Of a DNA stretch of 18,917 nucleotides, positions 5,271-16,463 are shown piece after piece (within the stretch, counting starts at the first letter, position 1; each line of letters begins with the position of its first letter). The notes under the pieces were generated by a model. The model worked only from the letters and a program-made list of their open reading frames with translations. It was not told the origin of the DNA and searched no databases. This DNA comes from Thiobacillus sp. Lineage in GTDB: Bacteria > Pseudomonadota > Gammaproteobacteria > Burkholderiales > Thiobacillaceae. A program made the translations under genes and the position numbers. The stretch covers positions 1 to 18,917 of the forward strand of contig NZ_JANJXQ010000082.1 of NCBI RefSeq assembly GCF_024708915.1, given 5' to 3'.

Positions 5271-6198
5271 GCACGATCACCCGCACGGCGAGGGCGGACA
5301 CCACGTACACGCAGCGGTCCCCGACGGCAATGGCAAGCTGGCCGTTGCCCTGCTGCTGACGCTGTCGTTCGCCGCGATCGAGGCGGTAGCCGGCTGGTGG
5401 TCGGGTTCGCTCGCGCTACTGTCCGATGCGGCGCACATGCTCACCGATTCCTCCGCGCTGGGGCTGGCCGCCGGCGCCGCCTGGCTGGCGCGCCGCCCGC
5501 CCAGCGCGCGCCATTCCTACGGGCTGGTGCGCGCCGAAGTGCTGGCCGCGCTGCTCAACAGCCTGGTGATGCTGGTCCTGATCGGCTACATCGTGCACGA
5601 GGCCATCGATCGCCTCGGCGCCGCCCCGCGTGAGATTGCCGGCAACGCTGTTATCGGCGTCGCCGCCATCGGCCTCGCGATCAATCTCGTCGTCGCCTGG
5701 GTGCTCTCGCGCGGCGAGCACACCTTGAACAGCCGTGCCGCGCTGCTGCATGTTCTGGGCGATGCACTCGGCTCGGTGGCGGCGATCACCGCCGGCATCG
5801 TCATCGTCGCCACCGGCTGGACGCCGATCGACCCGCTGCTGTCGCTGTTGGTGGCGGCGCTGATCCTGGTCTCGGCGTTGCGATTGCTGCGCGAAGTCGT
5901 GCATGTGCTGATGGAGGGGGTGCCCCTGCATGTCCGTCTCGATGCCGTCGGCCACGACCTGGCCGCGCTCGAAGGCGTGTTGCGGGTACACGACCTGCAT
6001 GTATGGACCCTGTCGTCCGGCACCATCGCCTTGTCCGCCCACCTGGAAATCCGTACCCTGGCCGACTGGCCGGCCATCCTCGCTGCCGCACGCCAAACCA
6101 TGGACACGCAGCACGGCATCCGCCATGTCACCCTGCAGCCCGAAGTGCCGGCAGCGGCGCCGCTGGTGCGCGCACCCTATCACCCCCCCCACCCCTGA
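5257..6198 (+). CDS. cation diffusion facilitator, CzcD/ZitB-like zinc exporter
   Basis: This predicted inner-membrane exporter (313 residues) moves divalent metal, probably Zn2+, out of the cytoplasm in exchange for protons. A histidine-rich N-terminus (HKHDHPHGEGGHHVH, 4-18) precedes about six membrane segments and a cytoplasmic C-terminal domain (HDLHVWTLSSG). The two metal-site motifs are SDAAHMLTD in TM2 (H60, D64) and HVLGD in TM5 (H165, D169); HxxxD in both is the zinc-type arrangement. It begins inside nagZ. I chose GTG at 5257 because ACGGA lies a few bases upstream and it keeps the whole His-rich segment; GTG at 5263 is the alternative. Coupling to nagZ looks translational. An 8-C run near the stop (6183-6190) affects only the last few residues. 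Confidence 0.9.
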   Translation: MDVHKHDHPHGEGGHHVHAAVPDGNGKLAVALLLTLSFAAIEAVAGWWSGSLALLSDAAHMLTDSSALGLAAGAAWLARRPPSARHSYGLVRAEVLAALLNSLVMLVLIGYIVHEAIDRLGAAPREIAGNAVIGVAAIGLAINLVVAWVLSRGEHTLNSRAALLHVLGDALGSVAAITAGIVIVATGWTPIDPLLSLLVAALILVSALRLLREVVHVLMEGVPLHVRLDAVGHDLAALEGVLRVHDLHVWTLSSGTIALSAHLEIRTLADWPAILAAARQTMDTQHGIRHVTLQPEVPAAAPLVRAPYHPPHP

Positions 6199-6231
6199 AT
6201 ACCTTTTCTGCAAAAAGTCGTACGTTGGCGC

Positions 6232-6262
6232 TTGACATACAAATGAGAATCGTTATTATTCG
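6232..6262 (+). promoter_or_regulatory. sigma-70 promoter with overlapping Fur box before hemP
   Basis: TTGACA at 6232-6237, a 16-bp spacer and TATTAT at 6254-6259 make a near-consensus sigma-70 promoter, the best in the window. The spacer and -10 are covered by AAATGAGAATCGTTATTATTCG (split here as AAATGAGAAT at 6241-6250 and CGTTATTATTCG after it), which resembles the Fur operator built on GATAAT units. The same AAATGAGAAT unit recurs on the opposite strand in the bfd promoter. Iron-replete repression of hemP and the genes behind it is therefore likely. Confidence 0.75.
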
Positions 6263-6292
6263 TAACACTTAAAACAGTAACAAACGTGTCGA

Positions 6293-6511
6293 ATGAACCC
6301 CGATCAACTCGAAGCAGACGCCGACACCATGCGAACGCACCCTTCTTCATCCAGCCGTTTACCGGTCGAGCCCAGGCAACGGGTTTTTCCGTCGGACATT
6401 ATCCCAACGAGTCTTTTATTCCAGGGCCATCAGGAAATCCTGATTAGCCACCAAGGCGAACACTACCGCCTGCGCATAACCAAGAACGGAAAACTGATTC
6501 TGACGAAGTAG
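6293..6511 (+). CDS. hemP: hemin uptake protein HemP family
   Basis: This is a 72-residue small protein whose C-terminal half carries the HemP signature: [11 protein letters not shown], then [15 protein letters not shown] ending at the stop. HemP/HmuP proteins are small cytoplasmic proteins found beside haem and siderophore uptake genes; in some betaproteobacteria and rhizobia a member acts as an activator needed for haem receptor expression. The first 35 or so residues are Ser/Pro-rich and unconserved in appearance. ATG at 6293 was used; ATG at 6329 is a possible later start, and neither has a clear Shine-Dalgarno. As the first gene behind the Fur-type promoter, it heads the iron operon and could have a regulatory role. 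No haem receptor, hmuTUV or haem oxygenase is present in this window. Confidence 0.88.
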
Positions 6512-6635
6512 CACGCACACCCTTTTCTGCTGCCTGAAAATGGAATTCCCTACAGCCCTGCCAGGCAGGATCGCCGCCAGCCTCGGACTGCGGCCCCGGC
6601 CGGCATCATTTGCAATTGAACCAGGTATGCCCGGG

Positions 6636-7418
6636 ATGACCGCCACGCTTACTGTTTCGCCGGAATACAAAAACGATCGCGACACGGCAACGGCACGCAG
6701 CGCCCGCTCGACATTCCAGCGCACGCGCATTTCACCCCTCCCGCTTCTCACGGTAAGCCTCGCTCACGCCGGTTTGCTCGGCCTGCTGCTGTTCGCCGCC
6801 GACACACCGCAACCCATTGCGCCGCCGCGGCCGCTGACGATCAGCCTGATCACACCCGAAGCCGCAAAACCACAGCCGGCGCCGCAACCCAAGCCGCGGC
6901 CGCAGCCCAGACCGGCGCCCAAACCACAGCTGCCTGAACCGGTAGTCAAGCCGCTGCCGCCGCCGATACTGGCGGCCAAACCGACGCCTACCCCTGCGCC
7001 GCAGCCGGCGTTCGAAGAAGTGCCCGTGCCGGCTCCCGTAGCCAAACCGGCGCCCGTACCTGAGCCGGTGTCGGCGCCCGAAACAGTACCGGTGCCGGTG
7101 GCGGCCGAAGCCAGCAAACCTGCGCCGGCGCCGCCCACGCCGCCACGCCAGGCGGATTACCTGGCCAATCCCAAGCCGCACTATCCGCCGCTGTCGCGGC
7201 GTCTGGGCGAGGCCGGCACGGTGCGCCTCAACATTCTGGTCAACCCGGACGGCAGTGTCGCGCGCCTGGAGCTGGCGCAAAGCAGCGGCTATCCGCGCCT
7301 CGACCGCTCCGCCATGGAGACGGTTCAGTCCAGCTGGAAATTCGAGCCCGCCCGCCAGGGCGGCAAGCCGGTGGCCGCCTGGGTCATCGTGCCGATCCAA
7401 TTCACTCTCAGGAGCTAA
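6636..7418 (+). CDS. tonB: energy-transducing protein TonB
   Basis: TonB spans the periplasm and passes the energy of the ExbB-ExbD proton channel to outer-membrane receptors. With this start the protein has 260 residues: a membrane anchor at about 35-55 (PLPLLTVSLAHAGLLGLLLF, with the histidine typical of the TonB anchor), a long Pro/Lys/Ala-rich periplasm-spanning region (about 57-165), and a C-terminal domain with YPPLSRRLGEAGTVRL, DGSV and SSGYPRLD. ATG 6636 was chosen because AGG lies about 11 bases upstream and it leaves a reasonable cytoplasmic tail. An in-frame ATG at 6540 would give 292 residues but has no Shine-Dalgarno. exbB begins 3 bp after the stop. It would serve both receptors encoded downstream. 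Confidence 0.92.
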   Translation: MTATLTVSPEYKNDRDTATARSARSTFQRTRISPLPLLTVSLAHAGLLGLLLFAADTPQPIAPPRPLTISLITPEAAKPQPAPQPKPRPQPRPAPKPQLPEPVVKPLPPPILAAKPTPTPAPQPAFEEVPVPAPVAKPAPVPEPVSAPETVPVPVAAEASKPAPAPPTPPRQADYLANPKPHYPPLSRRLGEAGTVRLNILVNPDGSVARLELAQSSGYPRLDRSAMETVQSSWKFEPARQGGKPVAAWVIVPIQFTLRS

Positions 7419-7421
7419 GTC

Positions 7422-8177
7422 ATGGAAACCGCAACACATCCAACCCAGCTGGGCTTCGCCCATTTCCTCGCACAGGCCGACGGCCTCGCGCATTTTCTGC
7501 TCGTCGTGCTGCTCGCGATGTCGGTCATCACCTGGTATCTCATCGCCAGCAAGAGCATTGCCAACTGGCGCATGAAGAAGCACGCGCAGGCTTTCCTGGC
7601 GCGCTTCTGGGATGCGCCCGGCCTGGCCTCGGTGGCCGAATACCTGCAGGGCCACGGCATCAACGACCCGTTCTCGCATCTCACCCACCACGGTCTCAAG
7701 GCCGCCGAGCAGTTCCGCAACAAGACCGGCCAGCGCCTGGTCGAGTCGGGTTCGGAAGACGAATTCCTCACCCGCGCGTTGCGGCGGGCGATCAACCAGG
7801 ACACCGCGCGCCTGGAATACGGTCACACCATGCTGGCGTCGATCGCGTCGTCGGCGCCCTTCGTCGGCCTGTTCGGCACGGTATGGGGCATTTATCACGC
7901 GCTGGTCAACATCGGCATGAGCGGCTCGGGCAGCCTCGACCAGGTCGCCGGCCCGGTCGGCGAGGCGCTGATCATGACCGCACTGGGCCTGGCCGTCGCG
8001 ATCCCCGCGGTGCTTGCCTACAACTTTTTCAACCGCGCCAAGCGCAGCATGCTGTCCGATGTCGACGGCTTCGCACACGACCTGTTCGCCTTCATGTCCA
8101 CCGGCGTGCGCAACAACACCCGCGTCGACAACGGCGCAGTGCGCATCTACAGCGCACCCGCGGCAAGGGGCGCGTGA
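7422..8177 (+). CDS. exbB: biopolymer transport protein ExbB
   Basis: ExbB is the pentameric inner-membrane scaffold of the TonB motor (MotA/TolQ/ExbB proton channel family). The 251-residue protein shows the expected three membrane segments at about 22-43, 137-160 and 176-200, with a large cytoplasmic loop between the first two. The signature APFVGLFGTVWGIYHA (145-160) and the glutamate within GPVGEALIMTALGLAVAIP (E181) are intact. AGGAG sits about 8 bases before ATG 7422. The stop overlaps the exbD start by one base (TGATG), so the two are translationally coupled. The C-terminus after the last helix is about 50 residues, longer than in E. coli ExbB. Confidence 0.95.
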   Translation: METATHPTQLGFAHFLAQADGLAHFLLVVLLAMSVITWYLIASKSIANWRMKKHAQAFLARFWDAPGLASVAEYLQGHGINDPFSHLTHHGLKAAEQFRNKTGQRLVESGSEDEFLTRALRRAINQDTARLEYGHTMLASIASSAPFVGLFGTVWGIYHALVNIGMSGSGSLDQVAGPVGEALIMTALGLAVAIPAVLAYNFFNRAKRSMLSDVDGFAHDLFAFMSTGVRNNTRVDNGAVRIYSAPAARGA

Positions 8178-8596
8178 TGGCCTTCGGCGGACTCGCGAAC
8201 GACAGCGGCGACGGCGACAACGCGGAGATCAACATGATTCCGCTGATCGACGTGATGCTGGTGCTGCTGGTCATCTTCATCATCACCGCGCCGCTGATGA
8301 CGCATGCGGTCAAGGTCGACCTGCCGCAGGCGTCGAGCCAGCCGAACGAGGTGAAGCCCGAAACGATCAATCTCTCGATCAAGGCCAACGGCACGGTGTT
8401 CTGGAATGCCGAGGCGGTCGACGCCGCGGCGTGGCAAACCCGCATGGCCGCCGCCGCGCAGCAGACCCCGCAGCCGGAAATCCATCTGCGCGCCGACGGT
8501 GACCTCGCCTATCGCCATGTCGCGCAGATCATGGCCGACGCCGCGCGTGCCGGTCTCGTCAAGCTGGGATTCGTGACCGACCCCCACACTCAATAA
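8177..8596 (+). CDS. exbD: biopolymer transport protein ExbD
   Basis: ExbD is the single-span partner in the ExbB5-ExbD2 motor that feeds TonB. This 139-residue protein has a short cytoplasmic N-terminus ending in AEINMIPLIDVMLVLL, a membrane helix at about 21-40 with the essential proton-carrying aspartate D25, and a periplasmic C-terminal domain (EIHLRADGDLAYRHV, then VKLGFVTDP). The start overlaps the exbB stop (TGATG); GTG three bases earlier is also in frame. A short hairpin and an SD-overlapping hairpin lie between it and the receptor gene. Confidence 0.95.
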   Translation: MAFGGLANDSGDGDNAEINMIPLIDVMLVLLVIFIITAPLMTHAVKVDLPQASSQPNEVKPETINLSIKANGTVFWNAEAVDAAAWQTRMAAAAQQTPQPEIHLRADGDLAYRHVAQIMADAARAGLVKLGFVTDPHTQ

Positions 8597-8608
8597 GGTT
8601 TCACTACA

Positions 8609-8627
8609 GGACGCAGTCGTCCGTTTT
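8609..8627 (+). terminator. weak hairpin plus TTTT after exbD
   Basis: GGACG (8609-8613), loop CAGT and CGTCC (8618-8622) are followed by G then TTTT (8624-8627). The stem is only 5 bp and the T tract is short, so at most it would be a partial terminator or attenuator lowering transcription into the receptor gene. Confidence 0.3.
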
Positions 8628-8632
8628 CAACC

Positions 8633-8697
8633 CCAGCCAGCCAACCGCATGCCTTGCGTCAAGCCAGCCAGACATATCTGACGCAAGGGAGCAAGCA
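8633..8697 (+). promoter_or_regulatory. structured leader of FecA-like receptor, hairpin over the SD
   Basis: CCAGCCAGCCAA (8633-8644) is followed by a perfect 10-bp stem, CCTTGCGTCA (8652-8661) with TGACGCAAGG (8679-8688). The 17-nt loop begins AGCCAGCCAG. The 3' arm includes the first half of the Shine-Dalgarno AAGGGAG (8685-8691). The same plan, with different arm sequence, occurs before the second receptor gene. It could control ribosome access; the ligand or trigger is unknown. As DNA the dyad could alternatively be a repressor site. Confidence 0.55.
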
Positions 8698-10782
8698 ATG
8701 AACCGTATCACCCGTACTTTCAGGCAGCAGGGCACGGCCCGTGCACTCACCCCATCCCGGCTGGCCGTGGCCGCCGCCTTCGCCCTCAATTTCCCAGCCC
8801 AGGGGATTGCTGCCCAAGCCGAACTGCCGCGCATCGACGTCATCTCGGGCGGCGAAGAAGCCATTGCCAAACAGCCGGGTTCTGTCTCGATCGTCGACAA
8901 AGCGCAACTCGAACGTATCCAGCCGCTCTCCACCGAGGACGCCCTGCGCAAGGTTCCCGGTGTACACATCAAGGGCGAAGAAGAAACGGGTATTGTCGCC
9001 AATATCGGCATTCGCGGCCTGAACGCGGCAGACTACAAGTCGCTGATCCTCGAAGATGGCGTGCCCGTCGCTCCCGGCCTGTTCGTTGGTAACGGCCGCT
9101 ACTACAATCCGCGCATCCAGCGCATGGACGAAATCGAAGTACTGAAGGGCGCCGCTGCGCTGCGCTACGGCCCCAACACCATCGGCGGCGTCGTCAACTA
9201 CAAGACCAAGGATCCCATCGACGGCTTCGCCGTCTCGGGCCGCGCCGGCACGCACAACTATCGCGAAGCCACCATCGAAGCAGGCGGCTCGACCCCTTCG
9301 GGAGAAGCCAGGGCCGGTTTGTTCTACACCCGCGCGTCGAGCGACGGCTTCCAGGACAAAGCGTTCGATATGCAGGACTTCATGCTCAAGGCCGGCATGG
9401 CGCTGGGCGACAACCAGTGGCTGGGCGCGAAATTCACGTATTACGAAAACGACGCCAATATTTCCTATCGTGGCCTGTTCCTTGGCGAATACAACGCCGG
9501 AGCCGAGTACAACCCCGCGCCGGATGACTACTTCCTGACCGAACGCAAATCGCTCGACCTCAACCATATGTGGGAAATCCGTCCCGGCATGAGCCTCAAC
9601 AGCGTGGTCTACTGGAGCGAGATGGTCCGTGACTACTGGCGTTTCGCTATCGACAACGCTGCCTCGACAGCCGCCGGAAGCTGGGTTTACACCAACGCTG
9701 TCAACGGCAACAACCGCGCCTTCGACCGCATCGGTCTGGATTCCCGCCTCACTGTCGCCAACCAGCTATTCGGTGTGGCCGGCGAGGCCGAAATCGGTGT
9801 GCGCGTGATGCAGGAAGAGATGGTCGATCAGGGTATCGCCGCGACCCGCGCCAACCCGCGTACCGGCACGATCAGCTCCGACCGTGTCGATTCCGCCACC
9901 AGCTACGCCCTGTTCGCACAGAATCGCTTCGATGTGACCGACAGGCTCTCGATCACCCCCGGCCTGCGGATTGAAAGCTACAAGCAAGAGCATGAAGACC
10001 TCAAGAACAATGCCAACAACGGCGACAGTTCGAACACCGAATACCTGCCCGGGATCGGCGCGACCTACAAGCTGAACCCCGCTGCCCAGCTTTACGGCAG
10101 CGTCTACAAAGCGTTCTCGCCGCCGCTCAACTCGCAGTCGATCGTGACGGGTCTCGATCAGCAACTCGATGCCGAACATTCCATCAACGTCGAATTCGGC
10201 GTGCGCGGCCAGAGCGGCGCGCTGCGTTACGAATTCACCGCGTTCCAGATGGATTTCGACAACCAGATCACCCCGGCCATCTCCGGCGGTCTGGCGAATG
10301 CGAACGCCGGCAGCACCCTGCATCGCGGCCTGGAAGGCGCACTGGGTTACCGCTGGAACAACGGCTTCAGCGTGGACGGCAACCTGACCTGGATTCCGGT
10401 TTCGGAATACCGCGAAAATCGCGGCGGCGGCATCAACGACGGCAACCGCCTGCCTTACTCGCCGGAATTCCTGGCGAACCTGAGCCTCGGCTACGCATCG
10501 GGCCCGGTCAACGCCGCACTATCGTGGAATTACGTCGACGAGCAATTCGGTTCCGGCGACAACACCACGCCGATTGCCGGCAGCGGAAACGCCATCTGGT
10601 CGGGCCTGATTCCGAGCTACACCACCGTCGATCTCACCGGCAGCTACGACGTCAACAAGCAGCTCAAGCTCTTTGGCGCGATCAAAAACCTGACCGACGA
10701 GCGCTACATCGCCAGTCTGCGCCAAGGCATCTATGCCGGCCCGGAACGGGCATTCGAGGTCGGTGCGAAATACACCTTCTGA
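8698..10782 (+). CDS. TonB-dependent outer-membrane receptor, FecA-like
   Basis: This 694-residue outer-membrane receptor is predicted to import a ferric chelate (FecA-type receptors take ferric dicitrate, but the ligand here is not certain). It has a signal peptide of about 40 residues, a TonB-box-like RIDVISG at 45-51, a plug domain from about 55 to 170 (EDALRKVPGVHI, IRGLNA, RMDEIEVLKGAAALRYGPNTIGG) and a 22-strand-type barrel ending in the aromatic terminus KYTF. There is no N-terminal signalling domain and no FecI/FecR pair beside it, so it is a plain transporter rather than a transducer. ATG 8698 has AAGGGAG 6 bases upstream, part of which lies in a hairpin. It sits 101 bp behind exbD, and the tonB-exbBD genes would energise it. 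Confidence 0.9.
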   Translation: MNRITRTFRQQGTARALTPSRLAVAAAFALNFPAQGIAAQAELPRIDVISGGEEAIAKQPGSVSIVDKAQLERIQPLSTEDALRKVPGVHIKGEEETGIVANIGIRGLNAADYKSLILEDGVPVAPGLFVGNGRYYNPRIQRMDEIEVLKGAAALRYGPNTIGGVVNYKTKDPIDGFAVSGRAGTHNYREATIEAGGSTPSGEARAGLFYTRASSDGFQDKAFDMQDFMLKAGMALGDNQWLGAKFTYYENDANISYRGLFLGEYNAGAEYNPAPDDYFLTERKSLDLNHMWEIRPGMSLNSVVYWSEMVRDYWRFAIDNAASTAAGSWVYTNAVNGNNRAFDRIGLDSRLTVANQLFGVAGEAEIGVRVMQEEMVDQGIAATRANPRTGTISSDRVDSATSYALFAQNRFDVTDRLSITPGLRIESYKQEHEDLKNNANNGDSSNTEYLPGIGATYKLNPAAQLYGSVYKAFSPPLNSQSIVTGLDQQLDAEHSINVEFGVRGQSGALRYEFTAFQMDFDNQITPAISGGLANANAGSTLHRGLEGALGYRWNNGFSVDGNLTWIPVSEYRENRGGGINDGNRLPYSPEFLANLSLGYASGPVNAALSWNYVDEQFGSGDNTTPIAGSGNAIWSGLIPSYTTVDLTGSYDVNKQLKLFGAIKNLTDERYIASLRQGIYAGPERAFEVGAKYTF

Positions 10783-10809
10783 CCCTGCGTCACGACTTCC
10801 GGGGAAAAC

Positions 10810-11036
10810 GTGATCGTCACCATTGACAACCTATCGACCTCCGGCGCGCTGGCGGCAATCCGCCCACAGCCCACCGAGGCGAACCGGGCGGCTGCCCTGT
10901 CGGCCGGCGCGCAGACCGCGCGCGTCAAGAAACCCGGCAACACCCGGAGGACGAGCTACAACTGCGCGGACTCCGGCTTCCCATCATGCGCGCGTTCGAC
11001 CACAGCAAGCTGCTGCGCAAGCGGACGGATCGCTGA
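10810..11036 (+). pseudogene. small gene with apparent frameshift, unknown function
   Basis: From GTG 10810 (GGGGAA just upstream) one frame reads VIVTIDNLSTSGALAAIRPQ and continues to about 10943 with strong G/C at third positions. After that this frame loses coding character, while the frame starting at 10944 gains it and reads PEDELQLRGLRLPIMRAFD, then HSKLLRKRTDR and a stop at 11034-11036. Joined by a -1 shift the product would have about 75 residues, with a basic C-terminus. I do not recognise either half. It lies between the FecA-like receptor and feoA in the same orientation, so it may be an iron-linked small protein that is broken, mis-sequenced or read by recoding. No canonical slippery heptamer is seen in frame near the switch. 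Confidence 0.4.
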
Positions 11037-11063
11037 GTCCCGCCCGTTCTTTTTCCTCTCGCC

Positions 11064-11300
11064 ATGCCAACCCTGAACCAAGCCGCCCTCCTCGCACCCT
11101 GCCGTGTTGCCCGCGTCGACGCTCCGCAAGCCTCGCCCGAGTGGCGAACCTGGCTCGAAGAAATCGGCTTCCTGCCCGGTGAACAGGCGATGCTGATGGC
11201 GCGCGCGCCGGGTGGCGATCCGCTGGTCGTGCGCGTTGGCGGCTCGACCTTCGCGTTGCGCTGCGCCGAGGCCGCGTGCGTCGAAATCGAGGGCGGCTGA
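11064..11300 (+). CDS. feoA: ferrous iron transport protein FeoA
   Basis: FeoA is a small cytoplasmic SH3-like protein needed for ferrous iron uptake through FeoB. The 78-residue product has the FeoA layout: a short N-terminal strand with CRVARVDA, the conserved central WLEEIGFLPGEQAMLMARAP (the L-x-E-x-G-x-x-P-G turn at about 31-40), then DPLVVRVGGSTFALRCAEAACVEI with the typical G-x-x-x-A-L-R ending. Length matches the family (about 75-85). feoB starts 2 bp after its stop, so the pair is surely co-translated. No feoC is found. The Shine-Dalgarno for ATG 11064 is poor, so its translation may depend on the small ORF upstream. Confidence 0.92.
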   Translation: MPTLNQAALLAPCRVARVDAPQASPEWRTWLEEIGFLPGEQAMLMARAPGGDPLVVRVGGSTFALRCAEAACVEIEGG

Positions 11301-11302
11301 CC

Positions 11303-13174
11303 ATGCACACCGCCGTCGTCCATCTGCACCCCGCCGGGCCGCTCGTTGCGCTCGTCGGCAACCCCAACTGCGGCAAGACCGCGCTGTTCAACCGCTTGAC
11401 CGGCAGCCGGCAAAAGGTCGCCAACTACGCCGGAGTGACGGTCGAACGCAAGGAAGGCCGCTTCGCCCTGCCCTCCGGCAAGATGCTGCGCCTGCTCGAC
11501 CTGCCCGGCACGTACAGCCTGCACCCGCGTTCGCCCGATGAACGCGTGACCGCCGACGTGCTCGCAGGCCGCGCGAAGGGCGAAAAACGTCCCGATCTCG
11601 CCGTCGTCGTCGTCGACGCGACCAACCTGCGCCGGACCTTGCGCCTCGCGCTCGCGGTCAAGCGCACCGGCCTGCCGATGCTTGTCGCGTTGAACATGCT
11701 CGATCTGGCCAGGCAGCGCGGCCTCACCATCGACGCTGCGCGGCTCGCCGACGCGCTCGGCGTGCCGGTGGTCGAAACCGTCGCCGTCGAAGGCGGCGGC
11801 GCCGACGCCCTCGTGTGCCAGCTCGACGCCGCCGCCCTGTGGCAGCGCCCCGCCGCGCCCGTATCGGCGGACGCCGCGGTCGAAGCCGACCATGCCGTCG
11901 TCGCACGCCTTCTCGCCGAGCTGGGCCTGGACCGTGCCGCACCGCACCTGCCGTCCGACCGCATCGACCGCGTCGTGTTGAACCCGCTGCTTGGCCTGCC
12001 GCTACTCGCCGTCGTGCTTTTCTTCGTGTTCCAGGCCGTGTTTTCCTGGGCCGAAGCGCCGATGGGCTGGATCGAAGCGGCGACCGGATGGGCCGCTGAG
12101 GGCATCGGCAGGCTGTTGGCGGACGGCTGGTTCAAGAGCCTCGTCGTCGACGGCGTCATCGCCGGCGCGGGCGGCGTCGTCGTCTTTCTGCCGCAGATCG
12201 TCATCCTGTTCTTCTTCATATTGGTATTGGAGGAGTCGGGCTATCTGCCGCGCGCGGCCTTCCTGCTCGACCGCCTCATGGGCGGCGTCGGCTTGTCGGG
12301 GCGCTCGTTCATCCCGTTGCTCTCCAGCTTCGCCTGCGCCATCCCCGGCATCATGGCTGCGCGCACCATCTCGAACCCCAGAGATCGCCTGGTCACCATC
12401 ATGATCGCGCCGCTCATGACCTGCTCGGCGCGTCTGCCGGTCTACGCGCTCCTGATTGGCGCGTTCATCCCGCGCCGCGAAGTCGGCGGCTTCGAATTGC
12501 AGGGGCTGGTGCTGTTCGCCCTTTACGTCGCCGGCATCTCCGGCGCGATGCTCATCGCGTGGCTCGCCAAGCATCTCACCGGCCACGGTTTCAAAGCGCC
12601 GCTGATGATGGAGCTGCCCGCCTACCATCTGCCGCGCGTACGCAACGTCGCAATCGGCCTGTGGCAGCGGATCAAGATCTTTCTGCGCCGGGTCGGCGGG
12701 ATCATCCTGGCGCTCACCATCCTGCTGTGGTTCCTGTCGAGCTACCCTGCGCCGCCCGTCGGCGCGACCGGCCCCGCCATCGAATACAGCCTCGCCGGCA
12801 CCATCGGCCGTGCGCTCGAAGCCGTGTTCGCGCCCATCGGCTTCAACTGGCAGATCAGCGTTTCACTGATTCCAGGGCTGGCTGCGCGCGAAGTCATGGT
12901 CGGTGCGCTCGGTACGGTATACGCGCTCTCCGCCACCGGTAAAGAAACCGGCGCGCTCACGACGCTGATTGCGGGCCAGTGGAGTCTCGCCACCGCCTTG
13001 TCGCTGCTCGCCTGGTTCGTCTTCGCGCCGCAATGCCTCGCCACGCTGGCCACCGTCAAGCGCGAAACCGGCGGCTGGACCATGCCGCTGATCATGGCCG
13101 GGTATCTGTTCGCCCTGGCGTATCTGGCTTCGTTCATCACCTACCGCCTGGCGCTCGCGGCAGGCTGGGGATAG
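11303..13174 (+). CDS. feoB: ferrous iron transporter FeoB
   Basis: FeoB is the inner-membrane Fe2+ transporter with an N-terminal G-protein domain. The 623-residue protein has G1 GNPNCGKT (19-26), G2 in VTVERKEG, G3 DLPGTYSL and G4 NMLD, followed by a helical GDI-like spacer, and then a membrane domain of two Gate repeats: the first holds SFACAIPGIMAARTI, the second the matching GLAAREVMVGALGTVYAL. It is shorter than E. coli FeoB (773), mainly in the loops, and ends shortly after the last helix. The start ATG 11303 lies 2 bp after feoA; a longer in-frame start would overlap feoA by 25 nt without family support. Its position between two receptors that handle ferric iron is notable. Confidence 0.95.
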   Translation: MHTAVVHLHPAGPLVALVGNPNCGKTALFNRLTGSRQKVANYAGVTVERKEGRFALPSGKMLRLLDLPGTYSLHPRSPDERVTADVLAGRAKGEKRPDLAVVVVDATNLRRTLRLALAVKRTGLPMLVALNMLDLARQRGLTIDAARLADALGVPVVETVAVEGGGADALVCQLDAAALWQRPAAPVSADAAVEADHAVVARLLAELGLDRAAPHLPSDRIDRVVLNPLLGLPLLAVVLFFVFQAVFSWAEAPMGWIEAATGWAAEGIGRLLADGWFKSLVVDGVIAGAGGVVVFLPQIVILFFFILVLEESGYLPRAAFLLDRLMGGVGLSGRSFIPLLSSFACAIPGIMAARTISNPRDRLVTIMIAPLMTCSARLPVYALLIGAFIPRREVGGFELQGLVLFALYVAGISGAMLIAWLAKHLTGHGFKAPLMMELPAYHLPRVRNVAIGLWQRIKIFLRRVGGIILALTILLWFLSSYPAPPVGATGPAIEYSLAGTIGRALEAVFAPIGFNWQISVSLIPGLAAREVMVGALGTVYALSATGKETGALTTLIAGQWSLATALSLLAWFVFAPQCLATLATVKRETGGWTMPLIMAGYLFALAYLASFITYRLALAAGWG

Positions 13175-13254
13175 GCATTGCCATTCGTCGCTTCACAACC
13201 AGCAGCGCGACCTGACCATTACATGCGTTCAATCAAGCAAAAATTTCTCAACCG

Positions 13255-13312
13255 CCAGCCAGCCAAGCGTTTTGCTCCGCCAGCCCGTTATTTTCCAATC
13301 AGGAGCAAATCC
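13255..13312 (+). promoter_or_regulatory. structured leader of Fiu-like receptor, hairpin over the SD
   Basis: CCAGCCAGCCAA (13255-13266) is followed by a perfect 8-bp stem, TTTGCTCC (13271-13278) with GGAGCAAA (13302-13309). The 23-nt loop begins GCCAGCCC. The 3' arm contains GGAG of the Shine-Dalgarno AGGAG (13301-13305), 7 bases before ATG 13313. The layout repeats that of the first receptor leader, with arms of different sequence but conserved pairing. The remaining 80 bp back to feoB show no Fur box and no clear promoter. Confidence 0.55.
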
Positions 13313-15556
13313 ATGTCGCACGCACGTTCACGCCCGCCTTCGGGCACCCTTCGCCAGCTGCTGGCGCGCATCCAGCCGGCCGCCGCGGCCCCTGCGGCGG
13401 CCTCGCTGGCTTTCATGATGCTGGCCCCCGCCGCCGCGCTGGCGCAACCCCCCGCAGCGGCCGAAACCACTCTGGCCACGGTGCAGGTAGAGGACACCGC
13501 CGATCCCATGACCGTCAATAACGGCTACCAGGCGACCGAGACCCGCGTCGGCAAAACCAGGCAGGATCCGCACGACGTCCCGCAAGCGATCACCACGCTC
13601 ACCAACCAGCTGATGGAGGAGCAACAGGTCGGCAGCCTGCGCGAAGCGCTGCGCAATGTGTCCGGCCTGACCTTCAACGCCGCCGAAGGCGGCCGCGCGG
13701 GCGACAACATGATGCTGCGCGGTTTCTACACCTTCGGCGACATGTACCTCGACGGCATCCGCGATACCGCGCAGTACAACCGTGAAACCTTCAACCTGGA
13801 GCAGGTCGACGTGCTGCGCGGCTCCGCCTCGATGCTGTTCGGCCGCGGCCAGGCCGGCGGCGTCATCAATCTGGTCAGCAAGACGCCGAAGCGCGCCGAT
13901 GCCTACAAGCTGACCGGCAGCGTCGGCACCGACGGCTACACCGAAGCCACGGCCGATCTCAACAAGCGCATCGGGCAGGACGCCGCCGTGCGGGTCAACC
14001 TGATGAAGCGCGACGAAGACAGCTGGCGCGAGAACCCGGTCACCGGCGCCCAGCCGGAAGTCGATCGCGGCGGCGTGGCGGTGAGCCTGGCGCTGGGGAT
14101 GCAGACCGACAACGCGTTCATCCTGTCGCATCAATTCACCCGCAACCGCGACATCCCCGACTACGGCTTCTCGTTCGACAATGCCACGCGCCGCCCGAAC
14201 AGCAACTTCTCGCCGGACACCTTCTGGGGCATCGACGCCAACTTCGACGACAGCGACGTGAACATCAGCACCGCGACGTGGACGCACCGCTTCTCGCCGA
14301 CAAGCGAACTGCGCACCACCGTTCGTTACGGCGATTACGAGCGCAGCTACTGGGCCCGCACACCCAATGCCACCACGCCGCCGAACGCGATCGGCCTGAT
14401 CGGCACCAATGCCGGCCCGACGCGCTCGATGGACTACGAGACCGTCACGGTGCAATCCGACTACAACACCCGTTTCCGCGCCCTCGACATGAAACACGAA
14501 CTGGTCGCCGGCATCGAGTATCTGCACGAGGACAGCCATCGCAGCGGACTTCGCAATCTCGGCGGTACGACGGTGGGCAATCCGCCGCTGTTCCAGCCCT
14601 ACGTCGAGAACACCACGGGCGCGGTCAATTTCACCGGCGATTCCTACGCGATCTACGTGCAGGACACGGTCGAGTTCATGCCTTTCTGGAAAGCCACGCT
14701 GGGCGCCAGGCGCGACGAGCTGAATGCCGATTACTCCAGCGCCACCTCGCCCAGTCTGGAGTATGGGGAGTGGAGCTACCGCGCGGCGCTGTCATGGCAG
14801 CCCAACGATAGCGCGCACTACTATCTCGGCTACAGCGATTCGTTCAGCCCCACCGCCGACCTGTATCAGCTGACCGTCACGCCGCAGCCGCCCGAAACCA
14901 GCCAGGTGGTCGAGCTGGGAGCGAAATGGATGTTCTTCGACGGTGATCTCGCGTTCCGCACCGCCCTCTACCGCGCCACCAAGCACTGGGAGCGCAACAC
15001 CGATCTCGAATCGACGGCCTCGATTCTCACCCGGAAACGGCGTACCGACGGACTGGAATTCGAACTGGCAGGCCGCATTACGCCCAGCTGGGAGGTGTTT
15101 GCCGGGGTTGCGCTGATGGATGCCGAGATCCTCGACACGGCCGAAAACATCCATGCCACGACCGGGGTCATCACCAAGGGCAACCTCGGCTACATCGGCC
15201 AGCGGCCGCGCAATACGCCCGAATACACCTTCAATTTGTGGAGTACCTACAAGCTGGGCGGCGGCTGGAAGATCGGCGGCGGCGTCGAGGTCAAGGGCGA
15301 CCGCTACGGCTACAACCCGAGCGGCACGGGCGCGATTCCCACCCTGCCTGGCGGCACCGCTTTCCACCCCAACACCGCACCGTCCTACGACCGCTGGGAT
15401 GCCATGGTCGCCTACGATCAGAAGGACTGGGGCGTTCGCCTGAACGTCAGGAACGTGTTCGACGAAGTCTATTACGACGCGATCTACGACAACGGCCCGT
15501 TCACCGTTCCAGGCACCAACCGCGCCTTCATCCTCACCGGCGAACTGAAGTTCTGA
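13313..15556 (+). CDS. fiu: TonB-dependent siderophore receptor, Fiu/PiuA-like
   Basis: This 747-residue outer-membrane receptor is most like the catecholate-siderophore receptors Fiu and PiuA, which take up iron bound to monocatechols. It has a signal peptide of about 44 residues ending in AALA, a TonB-box-like LATVQVE at 54-60, a plug from about 80 to 190 (HDVPQAITTLT, LREALRNVSGLTF, MLRGFYTFGDMYLDGIRD, VDVLRGSASMLFGRGQAGGVIN) and a barrel ending in ELKF. The start at 13313 follows AGGAG by 7 bases; an earlier in-frame ATG (13178) would put the signal peptide too far in. The next gene is piuC, the same pairing as fiu-ybiX in E. coli and piuA-piuC in pseudomonads, which supports the siderophore call. 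The exact ligand is unproven. Confidence 0.9.
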   Translation: MSHARSRPPSGTLRQLLARIQPAAAAPAAASLAFMMLAPAAALAQPPAAAETTLATVQVEDTADPMTVNNGYQATETRVGKTRQDPHDVPQAITTLTNQLMEEQQVGSLREALRNVSGLTFNAAEGGRAGDNMMLRGFYTFGDMYLDGIRDTAQYNRETFNLEQVDVLRGSASMLFGRGQAGGVINLVSKTPKRADAYKLTGSVGTDGYTEATADLNKRIGQDAAVRVNLMKRDEDSWRENPVTGAQPEVDRGGVAVSLALGMQTDNAFILSHQFTRNRDIPDYGFSFDNATRRPNSNFSPDTFWGIDANFDDSDVNISTATWTHRFSPTSELRTTVRYGDYERSYWARTPNATTPPNAIGLIGTNAGPTRSMDYETVTVQSDYNTRFRALDMKHELVAGIEYLHEDSHRSGLRNLGGTTVGNPPLFQPYVENTTGAVNFTGDSYAIYVQDTVEFMPFWKATLGARRDELNADYSSATSPSLEYGEWSYRAALSWQPNDSAHYYLGYSDSFSPTADLYQLTVTPQPPETSQVVELGAKWMFFDGDLAFRTALYRATKHWERNTDLESTASILTRKRRTDGLEFELAGRITPSWEVFAGVALMDAEILDTAENIHATTGVITKGNLGYIGQRPRNTPEYTFNLWSTYKLGGGWKIGGGVEVKGDRYGYNPSGTGAIPTLPGGTAFHPNTAPSYDRWDAMVAYDQKDWGVRLNVRNVFDEVYYDAIYDNGPFTVPGTNRAFILTGELKF

Positions 15557-15565
15557 GCCTGCTTT

Positions 15566-15620
15566 CCCTGCCGATTCATTGGCAGGGATAGGGCGCTGCC
15601 CACGCGGCGCCCTATCCCTG
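15566..15620 (+). promoter_or_regulatory. two overlapping hairpins between receptor and piuC
   Basis: CAGGGATAGGGCGC (15583-15596) pairs perfectly with GCGCCCTATCCCTG (15607-15620). The stem can grow inward by three more pairs (one G-U) to 17 bp with a CCAC loop. An alternative 7-bp stem, CCCTGCC (15566-15572) with GGCAGGG (15581-15587), uses part of the same 5' arm, so the two exclude each other. No T tract follows, so this is not a standard terminator. The big stem ends 2 bases before the piuC Shine-Dalgarno (AGGAG 15623-15627). It may protect an mRNA end or tune piuC against the receptor. Confidence 0.6.
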
Positions 15621-15635
15621 ACAGGAGACCCGACC

Positions 15636-16319
15636 ATGCTGCTGCATATACCCAACGTACTCGACGCCGCCGCCCTCGCCCGCTGCAGCGCGCTGCTCGA
15701 CCGGGCCGACTGGACCGACGGTCGCGTCACCGCCGGTTCGCAGGCCGCCACGGTCAAAAACAACCTGCAACTGCCGGAAGCCAGTCCGCTCGCCCAACAG
15801 CTGCGTGCGGTCGCGTTGGAGGCGCTGTCGAAGAATCCCAAATTCTTCAGCGCCGCCCTGCCCAAGCGCATCTATCCGCCGCTGTTCAACCGCTACGGCG
15901 GCGAAGCCAACTCCTTCGGCAACCACGTCGACAACGCCATCCGCACCCATCCGGCCAGCGCCCAGCACGTGCGCACCGACCTGTCGTTCACGCTGTTTCT
16001 CAATGATCCCGCCGACTACGACGGCGGCGAACTCATCATCGAGGACGGCATGGGCGGGCGGGCGGTCAAACTGCCGGCGGGCCACCTCATCCTCTACCCG
16101 TCGTACAGCGTGCACCGCGTCGAGGCGGTGACGCGCGGCGCGCGGCTGGCGTGCTTTTCCTGGCTGGAAAGCATGGTGCGCGAGCCGCAACAGCGCGAAT
16201 TGCTGTACGAACTGGACATGAGCATCGTCGCCCTGCGCGGCGAGCAGGGCGAGACCGATACCGCGGTGCGGCTGACCAGCTGTTACCACAACCTGATGCG
16301 GATGTGGGCGACGGTGTAG
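15636..16319 (+). CDS. piuC: PKHD-type Fe(II)/2-oxoglutarate hydroxylase (PiuC/YbiX)
   Basis: This 227-residue cytoplasmic dioxygenase belongs to the PiuC/YbiX family, made under iron limitation and thought to act on siderophore-derived or receptor-linked substrates; the true substrate is not settled. The iron facial triad is H97 and D99 in FGNHVDNAIR and H160 in YPSYSVHRVEAV, with R170 in TRGARLACFSW as the 2-oxoglutarate-binding arginine. The jelly-roll core reads DLSFTLFLNDPADYDGGEL. The length equals the E. coli protein (about 225). ATG 15636 was chosen for AGGAG 8 bases upstream and the family N-terminus MLLHIPNVL. It follows the Fiu-like receptor gene by 79 bp, the conserved partnership of the family. 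Confidence 0.93.
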   Translation: MLLHIPNVLDAAALARCSALLDRADWTDGRVTAGSQAATVKNNLQLPEASPLAQQLRAVALEALSKNPKFFSAALPKRIYPPLFNRYGGEANSFGNHVDNAIRTHPASAQHVRTDLSFTLFLNDPADYDGGELIIEDGMGGRAVKLPAGHLILYPSYSVHRVEAVTRGARLACFSWLESMVREPQQRELLYELDMSIVALRGEQGETDTAVRLTSCYHNLMRMWATV

Positions 16320-16435: not shown

Positions 16436-16463
16436 TTGACAATTATTCTCATTTATATAAAAT
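16436..16463 (+). promoter_or_regulatory. sigma-70 promoter with Fur box before bfd
   Basis: TTGACA at 16436-16441, a 16-bp spacer and TAAAAT at 16458-16463 form a good promoter 35 bp before the bfd start. The spacer holds CAATTATTCTCATTTATA, whose complement contains AAATGAGAATAATTG, the same AAATGAGAAT unit as in the hemP promoter, consistent with a Fur operator. Bfd is Fur-repressed in enterobacteria and pseudomonads, so repression by iron fits. Confidence 0.72.

Follow-up and report, generated by a model that had tools for sequence, protein, structure and literature searches.

Leaders of two siderophore-type TonB receptor genes in a Thiobacillus sp. carry the HmuP-responsive repeat and a predicted Shine-Dalgarno-masking hairpin

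The DNA analysed here, referred to below as the window, is an 18,917-nucleotide stretch of Thiobacillus sp. on which the genes are arranged in the order hemP, tonB, exbB, exbD, a first TonB-dependent receptor gene, a feoA-like frame, feoB, a second TonB-dependent receptor gene and a PKHD-type hydroxylase gene. In the leader of each receptor gene a direct repeat, AGCCAGCC...AGCCAGCC, is combined with a hairpin whose 3' arm reaches the Shine-Dalgarno (SD) sequence. This repeat is the already published HmuP-responsive element (HPRE), credited to Amarelle et al. 2019 in PMC9131926. The features on which the following analysis is based are:

6293..6511, + strand: hemP, small regulator of the HemP/HmuP/ChuP family, 72 amino acids (Pfam PF10636, E=1.2e-17)
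8633..8642, + strand: HPRE repeat 1 of the first leader, CCAGCCAGCC (sequence)
8646..8658, + strand: alternative spacer hairpin CGCA-UGCCU-UGCG between the two repeats (-4.4 kcal/mol, shuffle p 0.03)
8652..8661, + strand: 5' arm of the SD hairpin, first leader, CCTTGCGTCA (perfect 10-bp stem)
8662..8669, + strand: HPRE repeat 2 of the first leader, AGCCAGCC, on the 5' side of the loop (sequence)
8679..8688, + strand: 3' arm of the SD hairpin, first leader, TGACGCAAGG, running into the SD AAGGGAG at 8685-8691 (perfect 10-bp stem)
8698..10782, + strand: TonB-dependent receptor, ferric-chelate/siderophore type (PF00593, PF07715, TIGR01783)
13255..13264, + strand: HPRE repeat 1 of the second leader, CCAGCCAGCC (sequence)
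13271..13278, + strand: 5' arm of the SD hairpin, second leader, TTTGCTCC (perfect 8-bp stem)
13279..13285, + strand: HPRE repeat 2 of the second leader, GCCAGCC, one letter shorter than AGCCAGCC, at the start of the loop (sequence)
13302..13309, + strand: 3' arm of the SD hairpin, second leader, GGAGCAAA, with the SD inside the arm (perfect 8-bp stem)
13313..15556, + strand: TonB-dependent receptor, Fiu-like siderophore type (PF00593, PF07715, TIGR01783)

The first-pass annotation of the window had noted a shared motif and the same order of motif, stem, loop motif, SD, GGAGCAA and ATG in both leaders, and its coordinates as well as the perfect 10-bp and 8-bp stems were confirmed, the start codons being ATG 8698 and ATG 13313. 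Two exact copies of the 12-mer are present in the window, both of them in these leaders, and with up to two mismatches it gives six matches against a shuffle mean of 2.3. Both SD stems appear in the minimum-energy structures predicted for shorter and for longer stretches, and the CGC and GCG letters of the short hairpin in the first leader are invariant or nearly so in an alignment of 18 FecA-type leaders. The evidence beyond chance for the leader hairpins is comparative. A hairpin at the HPRE may be partly anticipated by Amarelle et al. 2019, the abstract of which reportedly mentions a predicted RNA structure element, and the same study may already contain some of the mechanism proposed below.

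The HPRE of Chromobacterium violaceum chuR, as quoted in PMC9131926, consists of the same two 8-mers placed 3 nucleotides apart, and vbuA, a siderophore receptor gene of this species, is likewise described there as having an HPRE. According to the passages of the same paper that deal with ChuP, this HemP/HmuP-family protein binds heme, fails to shift chu DNA probes, and is needed for the full expression of one heme receptor and one siderophore receptor, the chuR and vbuA transcript levels dropping without it; a positive post-transcriptional role is assigned to ChuP in C. violaceum and, by citation, to HmuP in Ensifer meliloti. In the passages concerned, the action of HemP/HmuP/ChuP is disputed between a DNA-acting activator, a repressor and a post-transcriptional activator (PMC9131926, PMC9241770, PMC11442138). 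At both window leaders a GCCAGCC-type direct repeat is found near the ATG of a TonB receptor gene, and the same genome has a HemP/HmuP/ChuP gene (hemP, 6293-6511). The earlier remark that no described element has this form therefore has to be withdrawn, as the repeat is the published HPRE and hemP itself lies within the window. A heme-receptor target, as in the first description of the HPRE, was not found: the first receptor passed TIGR01783 with 241 bits (cut-off 223.5) and failed the heme-receptor model TIGR01785 with 150 bits (cut-off 316.85), the second gave 242 and 77 bits, respectively, and both TIGR01785 and TIGR01786 were under cut-off for both receptors. Such a target was not treated as defining the HPRE because the siderophore receptor gene vbuA already has one. 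Like the HPREs of E. meliloti shmR and C. violaceum chuR/vbuA, those of the window have AGCCAGCC...AGCCAGCC shortly before a TonB-receptor ATG together with a HemP/HmuP/ChuP gene, but differ from them in spacers of 19 and 14 nucleotides (as parsed) that carry an anti-SD arm, and in that both receptors are of the siderophore type.

Further leaders were searched for by repeat patterns and pairing tests, with CAGCCAGCC...AGCCAGCC...ATG as the final pattern and its reversed form as a control. A looser pattern, AGCCAGCC N6-24 GCCAGCC, was rejected as noisy, since it matched in 112 of 117 genomes and many of the matches were plainly coding. In the genomes of 14 relatives the paired repeat gave 27 matches (some overlapping) in 12 genomes, as against one for the reversed control. 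With an ATG required after the repeats, the pattern was present in 58 of the 117 genomes of the G001 family, 52 of the 160 of the G009 family, 70 of 300 genomes of the order, 10 of the 81 of the G014 family and 21 of 369 genomes in a class-wide draw, the reversed control giving 2, 3, 3, 1 and 5 matches in total, respectively. The G014-family and class-wide draws yielded few usable leaders; the counts are unfiltered and contain coding matches, which apparently predominate in these two draws. Leaders of this kind upstream of receptor genes in relatives, on which the first-pass annotation had made its proposal depend, were thus found.

The sequences examined were a chosen subset of the pattern matches (52 from the G001 family, 37 from the G009 family and 20 from the order, plus loci from searches); genome sampling was uneven, and related leaders are not independent, which tests with one leader per group repair only partly. 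From the first set, 11 of 71 candidates were removed by hand (no ATG or SD as called, or plainly intragenic), leaving 60 leaders, and a later automatic filter (ATG, SD-like letters, an open frame of at least 100 amino acids, duplicates dropped by the last 38 nucleotides) gave 99 rows, to which the order draw added 20 for a total of 119. As L188 and L206 are still present twice among the 99 and L371 twice among the 20, these correspond to 97 and 19 distinct leaders. Rows were never removed for want of a hairpin. The second window leader is identical over its last 38 nucleotides to L055 from the closest genome found, Thiobacillus sp. 65-1402, whose first receptor is 96% identical, and was counted once, as L055. 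As a separate observation, another receptor gene in G001, the closest relative, has a leader (L084) almost identical to the first leader of the window, with CCTTGCGTCA and TGACGTAAGG.

The presence of HPREs follows that of hemP. In the 117 genomes, hemP was detected in 35 of the 36 with filtered HPRE leaders as against 51 of the 81 others (Fisher p 2.7e-5), G109 being the lone genome with a filtered HPRE and no hemP, and 30 having neither. With the unfiltered pattern the corresponding numbers were 50 of 58 and 36 of 59 (p 0.0018), with 8 genomes having the HPRE only and 23 neither. Moreover, in G016, G028, G050, G052, G063, G116 and G124 an HPRE begins 8-25 nucleotides after the end of the hemP match on the same strand, as would be expected of a site read in the hemP operon RNA.

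In 67 of the 99 filtered rows the gene behind the leader is related (BLASTP E<=1e-5) to the first window receptor (30), the second (14) or the P19 iron transporter (23). The proteins fall into 33 groups, and a Pfam scan of one member from each of 30 groups identified 13 TonB receptors, two PF10634 iron transport proteins, two HemS/ChuX proteins, two OprB porins, two TonB proteins, one DUF6662 protein (7 loci), one ferritin (2 loci), one siderophore-interacting protein (the single locus L238 of the class draw) and one sugar-porin match below cut-off, with five groups lacking a family; 24 of the 30 matched an iron or outer-membrane family above cut-off. HPREs are said to be absent from Gammaproteobacteria in the relevant passages of PMC9241770, but were found here in Marinospirillum (L052, two HemS/ChuX genes and two receptors), Ectothiorhodospira (L007) and Thiomicrorhabdus (L013). 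On the sequence evidence, one thing that comparison adds to the published HPREs is their placement before siderophore-type receptor, P19, porin, DUF6662, bacterioferritin and TonB genes and in some Gammaproteobacteria. Outer-membrane proteins of an 'ADENLLGYV' type recur behind HPREs (L179, L184, L139, L140, L190, L200, L212, L352, L354, L360 and L361); L179 is DUF6662 by Pfam, six more are grouped with it, and L352, L354, L360 and L361 were assigned by resemblance. This recurrence may point to a part in the uptake of iron or heme. Bacterioferritin-like genes also stand behind HPREs, namely L249 (PF00210), L266 (grouped with L249) and L363 (by resemblance); a storage protein is an odd target for an activator of iron uptake.

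In order to assess the SD hairpin across the class, pairing was computed between the spacer that separates the repeats and the sequence running from repeat 2 to the ATG, and was compared with that of permuted or shuffled spacers. In the first 60 leaders, own pairing averaged -12.2 kcal/mol against -8.4 in 10,000 permutations (lowest -9.65), and in the 99 filtered rows -10.9 against -8.0 (0 of 20,000 permutations). A sample from the G009 family, taken after the hypothesis arose, gave -8.8 against -7.4 kcal/mol (n=36; 5 of 20,000), and one leader per protein group (n=33) gave 1 of 20,000, with 4, 1 and 0 of 5,000 for alternative representatives. The shuffle test is cleaner than this swapping of spacers: at p<0.05, SD pairing was significant in 35 of 99 rows, as against 6 of 99 for an upstream control stretch, and in 7 of 20 as against 0 of 20 in the order sample; over the combined rows it was significant in 41 of 119. 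The arms themselves are diverse, for example TCCCATGGATC/GATCCATGGGA in L184, GGACTTCTCC/GGAGAAGTCC in L149 and GCCTCCTT/AAGGAGGC in L367, and L187, whose receptor is 79% identical, has TTTGCTCT/AGAGCAAA in place of the TTTGCTCC/GGAGCAAA of the second window leader. SD letters were predicted to be less often unpaired in the 99 HPRE leaders (median 0.25) than before 76 other genes located at 13 of the same loci (median 0.39, p 2.7e-4; p 0.011 with one per group), although the control stretches are richer in G+C.

Two types of leader could be aligned. Of the 30 leaders of the FecA type, the 18 that by eye could be aligned were used, including ones with a broken stem such as L011, and compensatory changes were seen from T-A to G-C (clean in L312) and from A-T to G-C (L207, L215). 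Twelve leaders of a P19/OprB type (10 of 23 P19 leaders plus L269 and L304) were selected by eye because they have the SD end in common; in these, repeat 2 itself lies within a 14-bp stem that covers the whole GGAGG; 94% of the cells in this stem are paired (2 of 500 shuffles reach this value) and three pairs are changed on both sides (reached by 13 of 500). The first-pass annotation had taken the unrelated yet perfectly pairing arms of the two window leaders as conserved RNA structure. Two perfect stems are too few to demonstrate covariation, whereas the comparative pairing test was positive overall; likewise, compensatory changes do exist in related leaders (L312, L207, L215), but the FecA-type set showed less covariation than had been hoped for. 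As a class the SD-masking hairpin is real as judged from these alignments and tests, with some compensatory changes and a part that is due to composition, and the shared leader and the retention of an SD-covering hairpin with different arms among relatives make the earlier suggestion of a common post-transcriptional element a probable one.

A second, shorter hairpin can often be formed by the spacer alone. Against shuffles, self-folding of the spacer was significant at p<0.05 in 31 of 119 rows and, averaged over one leader per group, in 9.7 of 45 groups (9.4 of 45 for SD pairing). Its loop tends to match the SD region, the longest match being 3.13 letters on average as compared with 2.89 for shuffled loops (n=78; 0 of 300 reach this). 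Both hairpins had p<0.1 in 29 of 119 rows, including the first window leader and L055, the copy of the second leader, although in L055 the short hairpin is weak (-1.5 kcal/mol). In the first window leader the competing folds are CGCA-UGCCU-UGCG and CCUUGCGUCA:UGACGCAAGG, and the clearest exclusive pair is that of L367, CGGGC-CUCCUU-GCCCG and GCCUCCUU:AAGGAGGC. Where the same letters are used by both hairpins, the two folds are mutually exclusive. The short hairpin places both repeats side by side.

These observations led us to consider it probable that both window leaders are HPREs that function as RNA sites at which HemP raises receptor expression post-transcriptionally by way of two exclusive hairpins. 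The parts of this interpretation that have support in sequence comparison are the repeats, hemP, their co-occurrence, the class-level SD pairing, the class-level alternative hairpin and some compensatory changes; the binding of HemP, the switching itself and the direction it takes in this bacterium, and any effect of heme on it are inferred. Under iron shortage, Fur would release the hemP operon and HemP would be made. In the off state, the leader would adopt the long hairpin with the spacer paired to the ribosome-binding site, and in the on state the short repeat-flanked hairpin, in which the same anti-SD letters would be tied up, often in its loop. HemP would grip both repeats, possibly as a dimer, and thereby shift the balance to the short hairpin and make the SD accessible; in leaders of the P19/OprB type, its binding to repeat 2 would be in direct competition with the pairing of the SD. 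Among Protein Data Bank relatives of the window HemP, 2jra scored E 3.1e-5, and 4ynx and 2loj were weaker; the HemP-family structures 2jra and 4ynx were each deposited with two chains. The proposed direction, with HemP switching the leader on, agrees with the reports of HmuP and ChuP as positive regulators. More tentatively, and with somewhat greater doubt than belief, the HPRE may be a protein-operated two-state RNA switch in which HemP on the bracketing repeats sets the translation of a whole iron regulon, comprising receptors, P19, porins, DUF6662 proteins, bacterioferritin and TonB. Such a mechanism would resemble CsrA/RsmA-type leader control, with a small protein and two short RNA sites, one of them in an SD-proximal hairpin loop, but the protein family and motif differ and the effect here is thought to be activation. 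With RNA thermometers and riboswitches that exchange anti-SD and SD pairing it would share a pair of alternative hairpins by which the SD is hidden or exposed; the window leaders differ from these in having no Rfam match at gathering scores and in the proposed input, a protein on flanking repeats.

Several results weigh against this interpretation. Neither window fold is significant singly, being at best slightly better than shuffles: 9/200 and 11/200 shuffles (two stretch lengths) fold as well as the first leader, and 46/200 and 28/200 as well as the second. SD pairing was not significant in 78 of 119 rows, and with one leader per group the excess shrinks (9 of 33 for the SD and 6 of 33 for the spacer's own hairpin, with 3 of 33 in the upstream control). 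The upstream control also beats permutation (-8.8 against -7.9, reached by 5 of 5,000), and the permutation signal must therefore be partly one of composition. The repeats occur with a weak hairpin or none in L005, L013, L161, L200, L202 and L213. Of the 18 FecA-type stems, aligned without gaps, six are perfect, seven have one mismatch and five have two or more, and the seven further pair types in the P19/OprB stem were reached by 99 of 500 shuffles. Among the 117 genomes, 51 have hemP but no filtered HPRE. As for the protein, the parts of PMC9131926 on ChuP give no demonstration of RNA binding, and in the passages available HemP/HmuP is reported as DNA-acting in Burkholderia (B. multivorans) and Bradyrhizobium and HemP as a repressor in Stenotrophomonas.

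The genetic surroundings of the leaders include the following further features:

6232..6259, + strand: sigma-70-like promoter TTGACA-16-TATTAT before hemP, overlapping a Fur-box-like site at 6244-6258 (consensus matches)
6540..7418, + strand: tonB (PF03544)
7422..8177, + strand: exbB (PF01618)
7883..8596, + strand: exbD, open frame as listed, overlapping exbB (PF02472 at residues 112-234)

The true start of exbD is probably further downstream than that of the listed frame. On the + strand from 6100 to 15700, the site at 6232-6259 was the sole sigma-70-like promoter match (about 1.4 such sites are expected by chance in the scanned stretch), and there was none near either receptor gene. Fur-box-like sites (up to three mismatches to one 15-mer) were found in the window at 6244, before hemP, and at 16437, and at this threshold none lies before either receptor gene. 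The first-pass annotation had set translational control on top of Fur control, which is supported for hemP by the site at 6244 but not for the receptor genes themselves. The position of the leaders and the absence of another promoter match fit a 5' untranslated location of both HPREs. The second Fur-box-like site (16437-16451) precedes a frame that we take, by sight, to encode a bacterioferritin-associated ferredoxin, and the frame between the first receptor gene and feoB is presumably feoA. Between exbD and the first HPRE lies a hairpin GGACG-CAGT-CGTCC (8608-8630, about -6.6 kcal/mol) followed by GTTTTC, with counterparts in L001, L002, L003 and L055; a function as attenuator or as weak terminator is possible, although a terminator scan did not list it. 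The segment 10809-11060, between the first receptor gene and the feoA-like frame, is without a clear gene and has short frames in two registers, which might represent a decayed small gene.

The same data were weighed for other explanations. The HPRE could be an RNA site for HemP that acts through mRNA stability or the recruitment of another factor, the SD hairpin being separate and optional. The retention of repeats without a clear hairpin in L005, L013 and L202 agrees with this, and the drop of chuR and vbuA transcripts without ChuP in C. violaceum, as reported in the relevant part of PMC9131926, fits stability as well as translation. However, in three samples the 5' arm, which lies between the repeats, pairs with the SD region in more cases than shuffled spacers do, and we regard this explanation as rather unlikely. 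That the repeats are instead DNA sites through which HemP, alone or with Fur or Irr, controls transcription would accord with the action at DNA reported, in the passages cited above, for Burkholderia multivorans and Bradyrhizobium; it is at odds with the closeness of the repeats to the ATG, often directly behind hemP, with the widely variable distance between them, with the lack of promoter and Fur-box matches near the receptor genes, and with the chu DNA probes left unshifted by ChuP in the portion of PMC9131926 concerned, all of which render it improbable.

A small RNA with GGCUGGCU stretches that pairs with the repeats would find two short C-rich SD-proximal sites, a usual layout of such targets. 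Yet HPREs track hemP, the published regulator is HemP/HmuP/ChuP in the passages available of PMC9131926, and an Rfam scan of the window at gathering scores gave a tRNA alone, no search aimed specifically at a complementary small RNA having been made; we therefore consider such an RNA very improbable. The notion that AGCC repeats are simply common in high-GC sequence and the hairpins accidental draws on the looser pattern, which matched almost everywhere and often in coding sequence, on the low yield of the class-wide draw (21 of 369) and on the weakness of each window fold when taken singly. It can hardly be credited, though, in view of two reversed-pattern matches in 117 genomes against the real pattern in 58, of 24 of 30 protein groups being iron or outer-membrane families above cut-off, and of the permutation results for spacer and SD.

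The proposal that HemP acts through the repeats on two exclusive hairpins has consequences beyond this locus. The anatomy of the leaders offers a concrete and testable mechanism for the disputed action of HemP/HmuP/ChuP and marks the genes that HemP should control, and it provides a functional hint for DUF6662 proteins, listed in Pfam as of unknown function. If true, it would add an SD switch that is operated by a protein and tied to iron supply, in bacteria outside the model organisms.

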